DNA of 64,000 nucleotides from Nannobrachium achirus (lineage: Eukaryota; Chordata; Actinopteri; Myctophiformes; Myctophidae). The notes beneath the pieces were generated by a model that was given only the letters and a program-made list of their open reading frames with translations, did not search any database and had not been told where the DNA came from. Below, piece after piece: positions 705 to 63,502 of the stretch (positions within the stretch are counted from its first letter, which is position 1; each line of letters opens with the position of its first letter). Location of the stretch: the NCBI GenBank assembly GCA_963921795.1, contig OY997651.1, positions 44,281,828 through 44,345,827 of the forward strand. The letters run 5' to 3'. A program made the position numbers and the translations under genes.

Positions 705-760
705 CCAATAGCAGATCTACAAGCTCACAATGCGTCGCGATGTAGATCGGCTATTTTCAA
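705..760. repeat. HP module (palindromic hairpin), degenerate copy
   Basis: This is the first copy of the palindrome found throughout the window. The left arm is AATAGCAGATCTACAAGCTC, followed by a short core and the right arm TGTAGATCGGCTATTTTCA. The right arm is shortened relative to better copies such as 59583-59658. I cannot define the host repeat around it. Confidence 0.7.
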
Positions 761-825
761 ATGGACAAAATATATAGGGCTGAAGAGATTAATTTGTTTT
801 ATAATAATATTCTAAATATCCAAAT

Positions 826-925
826 GTAACTAGTAACTTAAGTTGTCCAATATTGTAGTGGAGTAAAAGTACAATATTTGCCTCTGAGATGTAGTGGAGT
901 AGAAGTAAAAGTCAGTAAGAGCCGC
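826..925 (-). mobile_element. fragment of CAGTGGTG-type hAT element
   Basis: GTAGTGGAGTAAAAGTACAATATTTG and nearby words are the reverse complement of the interior of the elements at 15879 and 28827 (GTACTTTTACTCCACTAC). Neither end is present, so this is a fragment. A three-fold near repeat of GAGCTGATGTGTGAG follows at about 979-1028. Confidence 0.6.
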
Positions 926-1554
926 TGATCGGACCGTCCGTGTCCGGACGGCCCAAGCGGACATGGACAACCTGAGCGGGAGCTGATGTGTGAGCAGGAG
1001 CTGATGTGTGAGAGCTGATGTGTGAGACGGTTCCTGCAAGCTCACTTCAGTGAGTCATTCATGATGAAGTTACACACAGATGCACACAAAAGATTCTCTT
1101 CATGAAAGTGTTCTATATCTATCGTGACTAGGGCTGGAATTTCACGGCCACGGCCCTCGTTGCCCCTCTCTGTGGGGCGGTGTGCCCCTCGAAAAAATGA
1201 CATGCCCTATGGCCACAGTGGGCTTGATGCTCCCCCCCCCTGCCTGCACTTCCCCAGCTGATTTTACCATTTCTCCTCAGCGCTATCTTCCTGTCATTAT
1301 ACTGTAGAATTGTTATTGGAAAACATCAAGTGAAACGCTGTACATATATTATCCACAACGGCAGTTGCAAGGAGTTGCATTGCTGTGGCCCGGCCTTGAA
1401 ACTGTTTTGTTTGCAAGGAGTTGCGAATAGTTGCCTTAATTGGTGCAGTCTGGCCTAGAATCCTTATTTTGATTAAGAAATAGTATATTTTAAAGAGTGA
1501 AAAATCTACTAAAGTCATTATTAGTGAATAAGTTTAGAAAATACAATACAATCT

Positions 1555-1760
1555 TGGGGCGCCTGGTGGCCTAGTGGACCAGGCGCATACCATATAGGCT
1601 TTGCCATTTCGGCATCAATGCCTGTCGGCGTCGCCGGTTCGATTCCCGATCCGGGCGACCTTTGCCGCATGTCACTCCCTGTCTCTCCCCCATTTCCTGT
1701 CAGTCTACTGTCCTATCCAATAAAGGCAAAAAGCCCAAAAACAAATCTAAAAAAGAAAAA
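1555..1760 (+). mobile_element. tRNA-derived SINE with 18-bp target duplication
   Basis: The head contains TGGCCTAGTGG (A-box region) and GGTTCGATTCC (B box), the internal RNA polymerase III promoter of a tRNA. The body runs to CATTTCCTGTCAGTCTACTG and an AATAAAGGC tail with A-rich end. It is flanked by a perfect 18-bp direct repeat at 1537-1554 and 1761-1778 (GAAAATACAATACAATCT). This indicates LINE-mediated retrotransposition and a fairly young copy. Related copies lie at 11166, 16857, 17632, 28500, 37898(-), 58238 and 60063(-). Confidence 0.9.
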
Positions 1761-1779
1761 GAAAATACAATACAATCTC

Positions 1780-2152
1780 TAATATGTGAATGCTCATTTG
1801 ATTCACATGACCACTATATACTTAAGTCACTATAGTCCAGGGCTGAATGTGACAGATATCGAGACCAACATGATTTTGTACAAAATAATATTGGTAATTT
1901 GCCAATCTATTATTTTGTGAAATACATGGGTTATATTTCACTGATGGTTAAATCATTATTTCCCTGGACTTAAAATCCATGTTTTATGTGATGGCCTGCC
2001 CTGGCATTTGACCTTTGTGCCCTCCAAAAACAATGTCAACACCAAAGGCCAAGTGGCCTCACCCCTAAAATGACAACATGCCAGGCCTGATCATGACAGA
2101 CGATGTGAAAGATGACATGCACTGTGACATGTGCTCTTATCGTCTACTCATG
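1780..2152. other. unassigned stretch
   Basis: The stretch contains CCAGGGCTGAATG and CCCTGGACTT words reminiscent of hAT ends, but I could not pair two ends or find a target duplication. No coding signal is seen. Confidence 0.3.
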
Positions 2153-60588: not shown

Positions 60589-60767
60589 TTAATCTGAAGC
60601 TGGGGTGTTTCACATATAGCTGAAGTTCACCGCTGCAGGGTCTGGTGACAGCAGCTCTCAGGGAAGACTCCCCTGATCGCACTGATTGTTTCCCCTTTCT
60701 TTATTTTCTCCTCCCCTCCTCCCTTCCTCCCCACTTGAGAACTTCTGACCCGGGCCGCGAACCCTCC

Positions 60768-61268
60768 ACTGTATCTCTTTAATCCTTCGCCCTGACGTGT
60801 ACAACGCGTTAGAGATCAGATTATTGATCACGCTGTAATTGGAAAATCGTGTAGGCTGTACTTTTAGATTGAAATTCAGAACGATTTTGACTGCATGCGC
60901 GTGTGAGAGTTTTCTATAGGAAGATTTTTGTTATAGCCTCGGGTTGCCAGACTCGATATCCGCAGAGGCGGGCAATTTTATTTTGCACCAGCTGATTCGT
61001 GTCTGGCAGGCAATGCAAGGCTATTTTTGTTATGCTTAGCACAGGAGTTGTACAGTATCTGTATTCTGCGTTGTATGTCTCCTCACAAGTAATCTATCCG
61101 CTCAAAAGTTGATAGATCACGTCTCACGCTGCTTGACGTGACAAAACAGAACCACGTGCGATGCCTGATGAATCCTGTTGTATCTCTTAATCCTCCACCC
61201 TGACGTGTACAACCTATCGGGGATCAGATTATTGATCACGCTGTAATTGGAAAAATCGTGTGGGCCGG
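60768..61268. repeat. direct duplication of an 85-bp block
   Basis: CCCTGACGTGTACAACGCG...GATCAGATTATTGATCACG (60790-60850) recurs at 61198-61258 as CCCTGACGTGTACAACCTA...GATCAGATTATTGATCACG. The interval between includes the unoccupied-site relative (61027-61172) of the DNA around MULE-like copy 1. Confidence 0.85.
60935..61022. mobile_element. 88-bp TAGCC-ended mini-element with 11-bp duplication
   Basis: AGCCTCGGGTTGCCAGAC and GTCTGGCAGGCAATGCAAGGCT are rough inverse ends related to the TAGCCT ends of the MULE-like elements. ATTTTTGTTAT flanks both sides (60924-60934, 61023-61033). Duplications of 9-11 bp are a Mutator-like hallmark. Confidence 0.75.
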
Positions 61269-61699
61269 GACCCCAAGGGGGTCCTCAGAGTTACTACAGG
61301 GGGTCCTCCAAATCTTCCAATCCTTGTTATACTGTATTAACAATTTGAATTAGTGTCGATATTCTGAGAACTGTATCCAAAATTAGCAGATCTACAAGCT
61401 CACAACGCCTCATGCTGTGAGGCGTTGTGAGCTTGTAGATCGCTATTTTCGGCAAAGAGCTTTGGTGTAGAGGAGAAAAAGAGCAGACTAAGTACAGAGT
61501 GAAAGGTCAAGTTTATTAGGTAATGACGGTTCAAGTGGTTAAATATCTGTAAACACAAATTGACATGAATCCAATTAATACACTGATGATCGGCTGTCAA
61601 ACGATGAAACTATATGAAATCTATGAAAAGATGTGGGGTCCCTGCTTCATCTCTCTCTCAACTAAGGTGTCCTTGGCCTGAAAACGTTGAAGACCCCTG
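61265..61699. mobile_element. hAT element (family of 8415), 5'-truncated, HP module
   Basis: It shares GGGGGTCCTCAGAGTTACTA, the HP module (61384-61452), TTCAAGTGGTTAA and the perfect right end GTTGAAGACCCCTG with 8415-8846. The first 20 or so bases, including the left terminus, are missing. Confidence 0.88.
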
Positions 61700-62920
61700 G
61701 TGTAGCTGTACTCAAAGGTTTTCGCACACACACACACCCCTGTCAAAGGTGCGCCGAAGGTATACTTGACTGACAGCTCTTCTGTAGGAGAAGTGCATGG
61801 GACTAACCTCGCCTACCAGGCTTTCTCCCGGGAGAGAGCCTGGTGTTCGTTCACAACAGGCCGTTTGGTTTCCGCCTAAAGCGCGGAAACCACTAGAAGA
61901 AGCGGCGTCGCTTTGATTTGGTTCCCACCGTTTGTTTCCCCAATCCCTATTAAAATGCTCGAGTAGCCTAGTGTGGTTTTGCCGGTCGCTAAAAGTTGGA
62001 CTAAAACATGCATATACCAAACTAATTTTTCAAAAGCAAAACTACTCCGCATCGAGGAGTTTATTAGGTAGGCCATAAAAGTATGTCCTTGAGCGCAGGG
62101 GAATTATTTTGGGTTAAAACTGTTTTTTTCGGTGGATAGTTCCGGCCTTGAGTACTACAACATGACGTTTTGTGGTTTCCGCTCCAGACCGGTTACAAAC
62201 CCGAAAAGTGAAGTGATCCCAGACTAGCATGGGACTGTTCACAAGTGTCCACTGCAGACAGAAAGATCCTCGATATCTACCATACCTACAGCCATGATCA
62301 AAGCTTTAGCCCATGGAAGCTCTTCCCTTTCATCTTCTCTCTTGCTCTCTCGCTCTCTCGCTCTCCATTCTATTTCCTTTCTGCTTTGTGAAAACAGAAC
62401 GTTTTAATATGCTGCATAAGCCCCGCATTTTATCCCAGAGCTGACCAGCATTTGTAACCCTGCGTGTAAGTTCACAGGGGTTGGGACTGTGTGTGTGTGT
62501 GTACGTGACTATTGGAAACTAGCTGTTTGTCAAGCGCTGCCCCTGGCTATGGGAAATCGAAAAAAGAGCCTCTGCAGAGACCGCCTTAATTGCTTGGGGA
62601 TTTCTACGGCAAAAGACCAACAGCGCGGTGGCACCAAAGGGACTTTAGGAACGATCCAGGAAGTTGGTGTACTGAGTGGGGGGAAAAAACAGGAAGAAAA
62701 TTAACAAGGGAAAGAAAGCTGATGCATTGTTTTTCTGCCTTGTTTTAAAGATATTTTATAACTAATTTTGGGAGTCTCTTACAGTACAGTAGGTCGTGAT
62801 TCTTGTGGTACTTTGCTGTTGCTTAGAGAGAAATAAAGGCGTTGTCAGCATAGGTCATTAGTCCCTGGTGGTTGTGTTACACGGACTGGAGAAGAGAGGG
62901 ACTTATGGGTAATAATGCTG
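61700..62920. other. unassigned, mostly unique stretch
   Basis: Contains (CTCTCG)n-like runs at about 62340-62365 and a short GT run at 62491-62502. No repeat ends or exon patterns recognised; several small frames are unremarkable. Confidence 0.3.
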
Positions 62921-62924
62921 CATA

Positions 62925-63502
62925 TCGTCGTTGTCGGGTGAAAACCTTGTATGTCCCAAACCGTTCGTTTTGTATTTATCATTTAAAAAACGAACTAAAC
63001 TAGTGGAAACAGCCGATCTACAAGCACACAACGCCCCTTCTTTGTATACTGTTTGTTTAGACTTACTGTTTTCTTTTTTGTTTTTCTTTACATATCTACT
63101 GCATAGTACTGTGTTCTATTTGTCTGTCATTCAATGTTATATGAGATACTTCAATGGTTTCCAGTGGAAATAAGCTTAGTCTTTTCATGGATCTCCTTTT
63201 AGTAGACCTTGTACCAGTGAACTGTACCGTCATGAAACTGTACCTTTTCCTATGCAAACTTCTAATAAAGTCTTCAATCAATCAATCAATCGCACCACGA
63301 GGCGTTGTGTGCTTGTAGATCAGCTGTTTTCACTACTTTTGTGCGACAGCCTTGTCTGATGAAGCAGCGTTGTGTGCTTGTAGATCTGCTGTTTTCACTA
63401 CTTTTGTGCGACAGCCTTGTCTGATGAAGCAGGGCTTTACTTAGCGGAAAAACATACAAATTTGAAACTTGGAGATACGAGGTTTCCACCCGACAACGAC
63501 GA
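62925..63502. mobile_element. TCGTCG-family MITE, copy j, split by a LINE and partly duplicated
   Basis: TA flanks; ends TCGTCGTTGTCGGGTG and CCCGACAACGACGA. The HP left arm (63009-63032) is separated from its right arm (63299-63325) by LINE sequence. The right half (GCGTTGTGTGCTTGTAGATC through GATGAAGCA) is then tandemly duplicated (about 63303-63367 and 63368-63431). Confidence 0.88.
63036..63292 (+). mobile_element. LINE 3' end with (AATC)n tail in the hairpin loop
   Basis: T-rich 3' UTR-like sequence ends CTTCTAATAAAGTCTTCAAT plus CAATCAATC, an AATAAA signal and tandem tail typical of fish LINEs. It interrupts the HP core of copy j between ACAACGCC and GCACCACGAGGCG. No target duplication is seen. 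Confidence 0.7.

Follow-up and report, generated by a model that had tools for sequence, protein, structure and literature searches.

A hairpin repeated across the window and the genome

The 64,000-nt stretch of the Nannobrachium achirus genome analyzed here (contig OY997651.1, positions 44,281,828 to 44,345,827; hereafter the window) contains several kinds of small transposon that carry the same short palindrome in their interior. We refer to this palindrome as the hairpin (HP) and number its host families and contexts F1 to F12. A sequence-only reading of the window had counted about 37 full or partial copies. We searched for the arm pattern, AAAATAGC(A/C)GATCTACAAGC, allowing up to 3 mismatches in the window and up to 2 in the genome. 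The results showed 60 arm matches in the window, compared with a mean of 0.04 and a maximum of 1 in 100 shuffles. These arms paired into 25 hairpins of 45–76 bp, most often 71 bp, and the unpaired remainder comprised 14 single arms, one of them with 5 mismatches, in agreement with the earlier count. In the 1.66-Gb genome, the arm search returned 371,714 forward and 371,845 reverse matches (about 743,000 in total), compared with 2 + 1 for the reversed-pattern control. The earlier observation is therefore confirmed and is larger than was visible from the window alone. Chance as the origin of the arm copies was rejected by the window shuffles and the genome control.

A random sample of twenty 10-kb stretches, one per contig C1–C20 at 10 Mb (200 kb), contained 42 paired hairpins, which extrapolates to about 350,000 pairs, or no more than some 1.5% of the genome. 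With zero mismatch allowed on both sides, an inner-arm pattern had 46,924 genome matches. The arm pattern was absent from the viral contigs searched and occurred in 2 bacterial metagenome-assembled genome contigs, which we took as chance.

In the full, 71-bp hairpin, AAAATAGC(A/C)GATCTACAAGC is followed by a further part of the stem, then by a loop of 5 nt and finally by the inverse. Its core is formed by two 33-nt arms and the loop, and about 4 further base pairs with family-specific letters lie outside it. The core ends sharply (at AAAATAGC) across unrelated hosts, and the adjoining bases differ. Shorter copies carry deletions mostly near the centre, as judged by eye, and such centre-deleted copies are common in F7. 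Folding one copy as RNA, the stretch 59580–59660 with the perfect F6 hairpin, gave −67.5 kcal/mol (z −16.7; none of 200 shuffles was as good), so that this copy forms a stable hairpin of about 70 nt, as in a microRNA or hairpin-RNA gene. An Rfam scan of the window found no family at the gathering score.

Hosts of different types

Several hosts have the CAG/TAG terminal inverted repeats and 8-bp target duplications of hAT elements. Perfect 8-bp duplications flank hosts with different ends at window positions 8415–8846 and 7029–7588 and, in the further sequences examined (L numbers), at L015:1051–1463, L020:7623–7902 and L028:3998–4499. Others were found at L025:1088–1446 and at two F6 elements in L041 and L043; these two are both of the distinct complete hAT-ended F6 elements cut out, L042 and L044 being repeats of them and L045 and L046 having no complete end pair. 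The duplications do not come from hairpin-bearing F3 or F4 copies. A variant hAT host, F5', has a 9-bp direct repeat (ATCTAAACG) in L027, and F2 has an imperfect one. TTAA stands on both sides of the F6 element L011:8712–9288, whose end repeat may extend further out, and precedes CCC on several other F6 outer sides. Four F7 copies in the window have TA on both sides, which may be a target duplication of the Tc1/mariner-like kind or part of the end repeat.

The host ends named in the sequence-only reading stood at 8415, 7029, 4317, 15879, 49156 and 17846, as did the TTAA ends at 13908 (TTAA, then CCTATTTAGG) and 54165 (TTAA followed by an additional A and CCCATTTAGG). Those at 11949 and 53497 were off by 2–3 bases, and 61265, 32791, 59157 and 60168 are not clean ends. 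Its TTAA-flanked family has to be amended in two respects: the elements contain two hairpins, and the same two-hairpin interior also occurs within hAT ends (4317).

We clustered 75 paired copies by their flank sequence. This yielded 16 clusters, with 29, 11, 11, 5, 4, 4 and 2 members and nine singletons, one of which belongs to F7; F1 and F2 copies fall together in one cluster. The flank comparison also bore out the claim that the position of the hairpin is constant within a family. The 42 random copies comprised 20 F6, 6 F1/F2, 4 F7, 3 F5', 3 F9, 1 F11, 4 single copies and 1 with too short a flank. Of these, 40 sit in repeat families (37 by clustering, L025:6526 and L013:9911 by F7 flanks, and L017:7180 by a high-copy family), with two unsettled.

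We then compared 16 host contexts in 120 pairs at E 0.01, with the hairpin and 9 flanking bases masked. The contexts included F10 (probably a local duplication), F8 (single-copy DNA), the unclassed c9 and L017. Three pairs matched: the two F6 forms, F1/F5' (a 25-nt end match) and F3/L017 (a 22-nt match); the masked comparison misses the short F5/F5' and F4/F5' likeness seen by eye. By this sequence comparison, the hosts are not one family, and one palindrome is indeed common to unrelated families, the same subtype occurring beside both hAT and TTAA ends. Descent of all hosts from a single hairpin-carrying ancestor, which would have overturned the earlier reading, is very improbable and largely refuted given the 117 of 120 pairs without a match and the different types of ends and duplications, despite some kinship (F4/F5' by eye, F5/F5' next to the hairpin, F1/F2 in one flank cluster and the two F6 forms).

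F10 comprises four near-identical hairpin-bearing copies (L003–L006), 2–3 kb apart at 25–36 kb of contig C1, near its start, probably a local duplication; it was kept as a context in the pairing and host comparisons and was not counted as a transposon family. In a structural survey, 7 of 12 hAT-like elements (CAG/TAG ends, perfect duplication) contained the hairpin, which in three of these belonged to a nested F7 copy. Inspection by eye had excluded 17 of the 29 rows as not hAT-like, and the filter omitted 7029–7588 and L015:1051–1463. Three different hATs with perfect duplications (L015:6641–7198, L012:658–1105 and L028:2254–2765) each have an F7 copy close to the middle, a position that may be chance. 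Among hAT transposase loci, L035 had four arm matches and L036–L040 had none.

The same centre beside different ends

The F6 subtype with GATATAC in one arm occurred in the genome beside the hAT end CAGGGGCGTCAC 12,860 times (6,455 + 6,405) and beside the TTAA-type end TTAACCCATTTAGG 6,722 times (3,399 + 3,323; this pattern presupposes TTAA). The interiors of the hAT-ended and TTAA-ended forms are 88.5% identical over 174 bp. A central core is shared here by families with different ends, as in short interspersed elements (SINEs).

The converse was found in F5 (hAT, CAGKGGCGTCA). Its sister L022:810–1311 (duplication TGCCTTGG) has the same ends and another palindrome in place of the hairpin. 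The sisters share the 5' part of F5, and L028 holds one similar to L022:810–1311. This second palindrome (arm GGTATGGCAACATGACTGGTGTC) is central in the sisters at L022:810–1311, L028:5811–5860, L043, L044 and window 16786–16850, and its arm had 12 matches in the sequences examined (L043 and L044 overlap). Exchange of palindromic centres may be general in this genome.

Shared tracts extend beyond the hairpin to different degrees. By eye, F5 and F5', a hAT with other ends, are identical at 33 of 34 bases on one side of the hairpin, and F7 and F12 (hAT) have in common the hairpin and about 8–9 bases on each side. Together with F6, these tracts suggest exchange points at varying distances from the hairpin.

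Paired changes and loop inversion

We aligned 11 copies, one per host context, without gaps and together with 8 flanking bases. The results revealed that 84.9% of the alignment cells were paired, compared with 34–43% after sliding. Both sides had changed in 23 of 41 pairs, and none of 500 shuffles was as high, a count that is not a probability because the hairpins are related. Family-specific changes were present in both arms. Outer pair 5 occurred as five pair types among the 11 contexts, and one stem pair was unpaired in 8 of them.

Pairing outside the core was assessed after removal of the F7 duplicate cluster. At a distance of 1–4 bases, 40 of 60 positions were inverted matches, compared with 19.7 when the sides were exchanged between clusters (p ~5e-5). 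Further out, inverted matches were at background (positions 5–8, 20/60; positions 9–12, 10/60). At arm position 9, 29 of 75 copies had an A in one arm opposite a C in the other; this state was found in 11 of 16 clusters and was the commonest in 10. F6 had A/A at this position in 28 of 29 copies and carried a mismatch four bases further in instead. With F7 flank and arm fixed, the loop read CACCG in 3,628 copies and was inverted to CGGTG in 1,868.

Departure from the majority sequence was lower in the arms than elsewhere in the element for F7 (0.054 versus 0.088), F1 (0.018 versus 0.061) and F6 (0.024 versus 0.097), based on 14, 8 and 13 copies, respectively, chosen among those with a recognisable hairpin. 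In pairwise comparisons of copies found by the arm itself, the hairpin was less divergent than the flanks in F6, F1, F7 and F5, equal in F10 (6 pairs) and more divergent in F9 (0.237 versus 0.150; 2 pairs).

Borders and empty sites

A direct repeat of at least 4 bases was found at the hairpin borders in none of 15 representatives; one had a 3-base and two a 2-base repeat. The hairpin thus lacks, at its own borders, the target duplication of an independent transposon. F7 flanks were separated by a hairpin-sized gap 4,884 times in the genome (2,429 + 2,455) and by a gap of 0–14 bases 22 times. By eye, 16 of these 22 retained hairpin letters, 1 was doubtful and 5 had none. The exact join ACTAGTG-CACTAC was absent among them, and two of the five letter-free copies were one base short of it. 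In the L017:7180 family, for which 40 of 893 first-look candidates were scored (99–100% identity), a search for gaps of 0–30 found a single copy, a hairpin remnant, and no exact empty site. Exact empty sites, as expected of an independent transposon, were thus missing from both families. An open reading frame, short and beginning MTSAERTRKYREKLNNDPARR, lies beside the hairpin in the L017:6891–7242 element, which was perhaps recently active.

Of 23 flank matches in the window that were distant from known hairpins, none was a clean empty host; inspection by eye assigned them to interior parts of F6, ends of F7 or the F9 copy at 52 kb. Two F3-type copies (28820 and 51225) are wholly without the hairpin, and other supposedly hairpin-free ones contain remnants. 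The copy at 51225–51577, a hAT with the duplication TGCACACT, holds an inverted-repeat element with GGGTGCCC ends, TTA-flanked by eye, which is an ordinary nested insertion, unlike the hairpin.

The sequence-only reading had proposed a tiny mobile foldback unit. Since neither a border duplication nor, in F7 and the L017 family, an exact empty site was found, mobility today is not borne out, and the hairpin does not look mobile at present. The hairpin at 6360–6430 could have inserted on its own long ago, or it could be what is left at the middle of a longer palindrome that has decayed, as by eye its flanks contain an inverted repeat of some 15 nt.

A candidate passenger core and its rivals

Our preferred explanation, held with about even confidence, is that the hairpin is a passenger core amplified by host transposases and transferred from one family to another through strand switching where the hairpin is extruded. 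It would be a palindromic core module of non-autonomous DNA transposons, copied by the host transposases as part of each element, and would probably no longer move by itself. For this transfer, strands would be switched at the extruded hairpin during replication or gap repair, which would join old centres to new ends and leave exchange points at varying distances. Switching from arm to arm, or selection for pairing, would keep the arms complementary and flip the loop.

Several results weigh against this explanation. No strand switching was observed, and the flips and chimeras could stem from a few old events amplified later. The five F7 short-gap copies without hairpin letters, two of them near-exact, leave room for empty sites at a low frequency. 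The sharp core ends in unrelated hosts fit a fixed-end unit better than random exchange points, and the hairpin at 6360–6430 adjoins single-copy DNA. In addition, plain arm-to-arm copying would tend to erase the persistent A/C mismatch at position 9.

A serious rival, possible though tentative, is a putative functional hairpin under selection as DNA or RNA, in which a factor or small-RNA pathway would recognise a duplex of about 25 nt with a mid-stem mismatch. The outer and inner stem would need only to pair, and hairpin-bearing elements would spread better, so that unrelated families would keep the hairpin. This rival accounts better than the passenger core for the lasting mismatch and for a conserved core flanked by paired but unconserved stem, as seen in the high proportion of paired cells, the five types of outer pair 5 and the one fixed pair left unpaired in most host types. 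The lower departure of the arms in F7, F1 and F6 and the stable fold of the one copy are also consistent with it. However, copying from arm to arm would account for paired changes even if selection were absent, copies with a deleted centre are frequent in F7, and no Rfam family was detected in the window. The conservation itself was measured on copies chosen by a recognisable hairpin or by the arm, with no difference in F10 and the reverse in F9. A more general form, which we consider doubtful, is that the hairpin, selected as a structure, serves every kind of DNA transposon as a helper part. Elements acquiring it would gain copy number, and the hairpin would for this reason have become the common core of many abundant miniature inverted-repeat transposable elements (MITEs) in this genome.

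It is unlikely that the hairpin represents a present or former minimal foldback element, itself mobile, that inserted at the centres of short palindromes without target duplication and at some time in the past entered each family separately. The sharp common ends and the copy beside single-copy DNA at 6360–6430 fit this idea, as do the two F7 copies that miss an exact empty join by a single base. The adjoining four bases also form inverted repeats with family-specific letters, as if dyad centres had been entered. It is opposed by the missing target duplications and exact empty sites, by the lack of any known gene of its own and by the placement of 40 of 42 random copies in repeat families.

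Relation to known elements

Classification of non-autonomous DNA transposons usually relies on the ends and traces each to one parent. The hosts described here resemble ordinary hAT, TTAA-flanked and TA-flanked MITEs in their terminal repeats and, for the hAT types, in their target duplications, and a shared palindromic centre lies outside the definition of any of these. Its presence in all three types in very many copies suggests that, as in SINEs, the centres evolve apart from the ends, and its presence inside many otherwise unrelated small transposon families suggests that it behaves as an interchangeable core part.

Angel and similar short inverted-repeat elements of teleosts are hairpin-forming, non-autonomous and high in copy number, and a hairpin-based amplification model has been proposed for them. 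In these elements the whole element is a hairpin of related sequence, whereas the hairpin described here is a small core among unrelated ends. Bacterial REP elements, Rickettsia palindromic elements and the GC-rich double hairpins of fungal mitochondria are likewise small palindromes in unrelated contexts. The present hairpin differs from them in its organism, in sitting inside transposons and in showing no sign of present mobility.

The closest precedent found is the highly conserved domains of SINEs together with MER6, as described in PMC6887750. There, SINEs share central domains (V and other highly conserved domains), with one interior and different ends, and MER6 is a composite MITE in which mariner ends are joined to the body of a fish V-SINE (PMC6887750). 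On that account, both cases resemble ours in having a conserved interior with different ends in unrelated non-autonomous elements and a composite origin shown by matching parts. In contrast, the SINE domain of MER6 is retroposon-derived and joins one DNA transposon, whereas the hairpin is near-perfect, occurs in several DNA-transposon types and shows paired changes and loop flips. In place of the tRNA-like head of a retroposed SINE, the hAT hosts have DNA-transposon ends and duplications, and ARAGORN found no tRNA in the window. Neither a similar element nor the arm sequence was found in the literature searched; a listing in subscription journals or repeat libraries, which lay outside that search, is possible. 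If the preferred explanation is true, the hairpin would offer thousands of natural replicates for testing palindrome-driven template switching in the vertebrate germ line and would let one ask whether an internal hairpin helps unrelated transposases.

Hairpins and hosts in the window

Table 1. Hairpins (HP), single arms and delimited host elements in the window
Position	Strand	Feature
705..757		HP, shortened to 53 bp, in F3-type (CAGTGGTG) interior
4317..4861		F6 two-hairpin element, hAT-type end CAGGGGCGTCAC
4407..4477		HP, 71 bp, F6 subtype, GATATAC in one arm
4671..4725		Second HP of F6 element 4317..4861
6360..6430		HP, F8, 71 bp; 130 bases to right match only themselves in genome
7029..7588	+	Host F5, hAT, 8-bp duplication ACCCAAAC
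7453..7503		HP in F5
8237..8308		HP in relative of F9 (CAGGGACGTGC hAT)
8415..8846	+	Host F1, hAT CAGGGGTCTTCAAC, 8-bp duplication TGCTAGAG
8551..8626		HP in F1
10969..11039		HP in F7 (TA-flanked TCGTCG family)
11951..12350	+	Host F2, ends CAGGTGTTTTCAAA / TTTGAAAACCCCTG, flanking repeat imperfect
12143..12162	+	Single arm in F2
13948..14018		HP in F6
14254..14312		Second HP of F6 element with HP 13948..14018
16131..16180		Decayed HP in F3 (CAGTGGTG)
17981..18050		HP in F4 (TAGGGCATTCAC); F4 by eye an older relative of F5'
22202..22221	-	Single arm
26538..26557	-	Single arm in F7
30202..30259		HP in F7
32917..32970		HP in F6, relative of hAT-ended form
33224..33272		Second HP of F6 element with HP 32917..32970
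35514..35584		HP in F7
36544..36588		HP in F7, centre deleted
39338..39357	-	Single arm
40693..40754		HP in F7
44656..44912	+	Host F7, end repeat TCGTCGTTGTCGGG, TA both sides
44761..44831		HP in F7
45766..45840		Rearranged arms in F7 copy
46430..46495		HP in F7
49302..49372		HP in F3
50385..50404	-	Single arm in F5 copy
52746..52794		Decayed HP in F9-type copy
53672..53742		HP in F6-like element
54206..54276		HP in F6, outer end TTAAACCCATTTAGG
54624..54694		Second HP of F6 element with HP 54206..54276
58549..58610		Decayed HP
59200..59260		Half HP in F6
59585..59655		Perfect HP in F6
60180..60199	-	Single arm in F6 fragment
61380..61450		HP in F1 copy (61267-61699)
63006..63025	+	Single arm in rearranged F7 copy
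63311..63395	-	Two half HPs in 65-bp tandem repeat, F7

Two other repeats were observed in the window. A 38-bp tandem repeat (unit TTGTTGCTCTGTACCCAGTGAGTCCACTCTAACTGGTA, 18.5 copies) occupies 49582–50283, beside F3 and F5 copies. CA/GT runs are abundant, the 12-mer CACACACACACA occurring 589 times including its complement.

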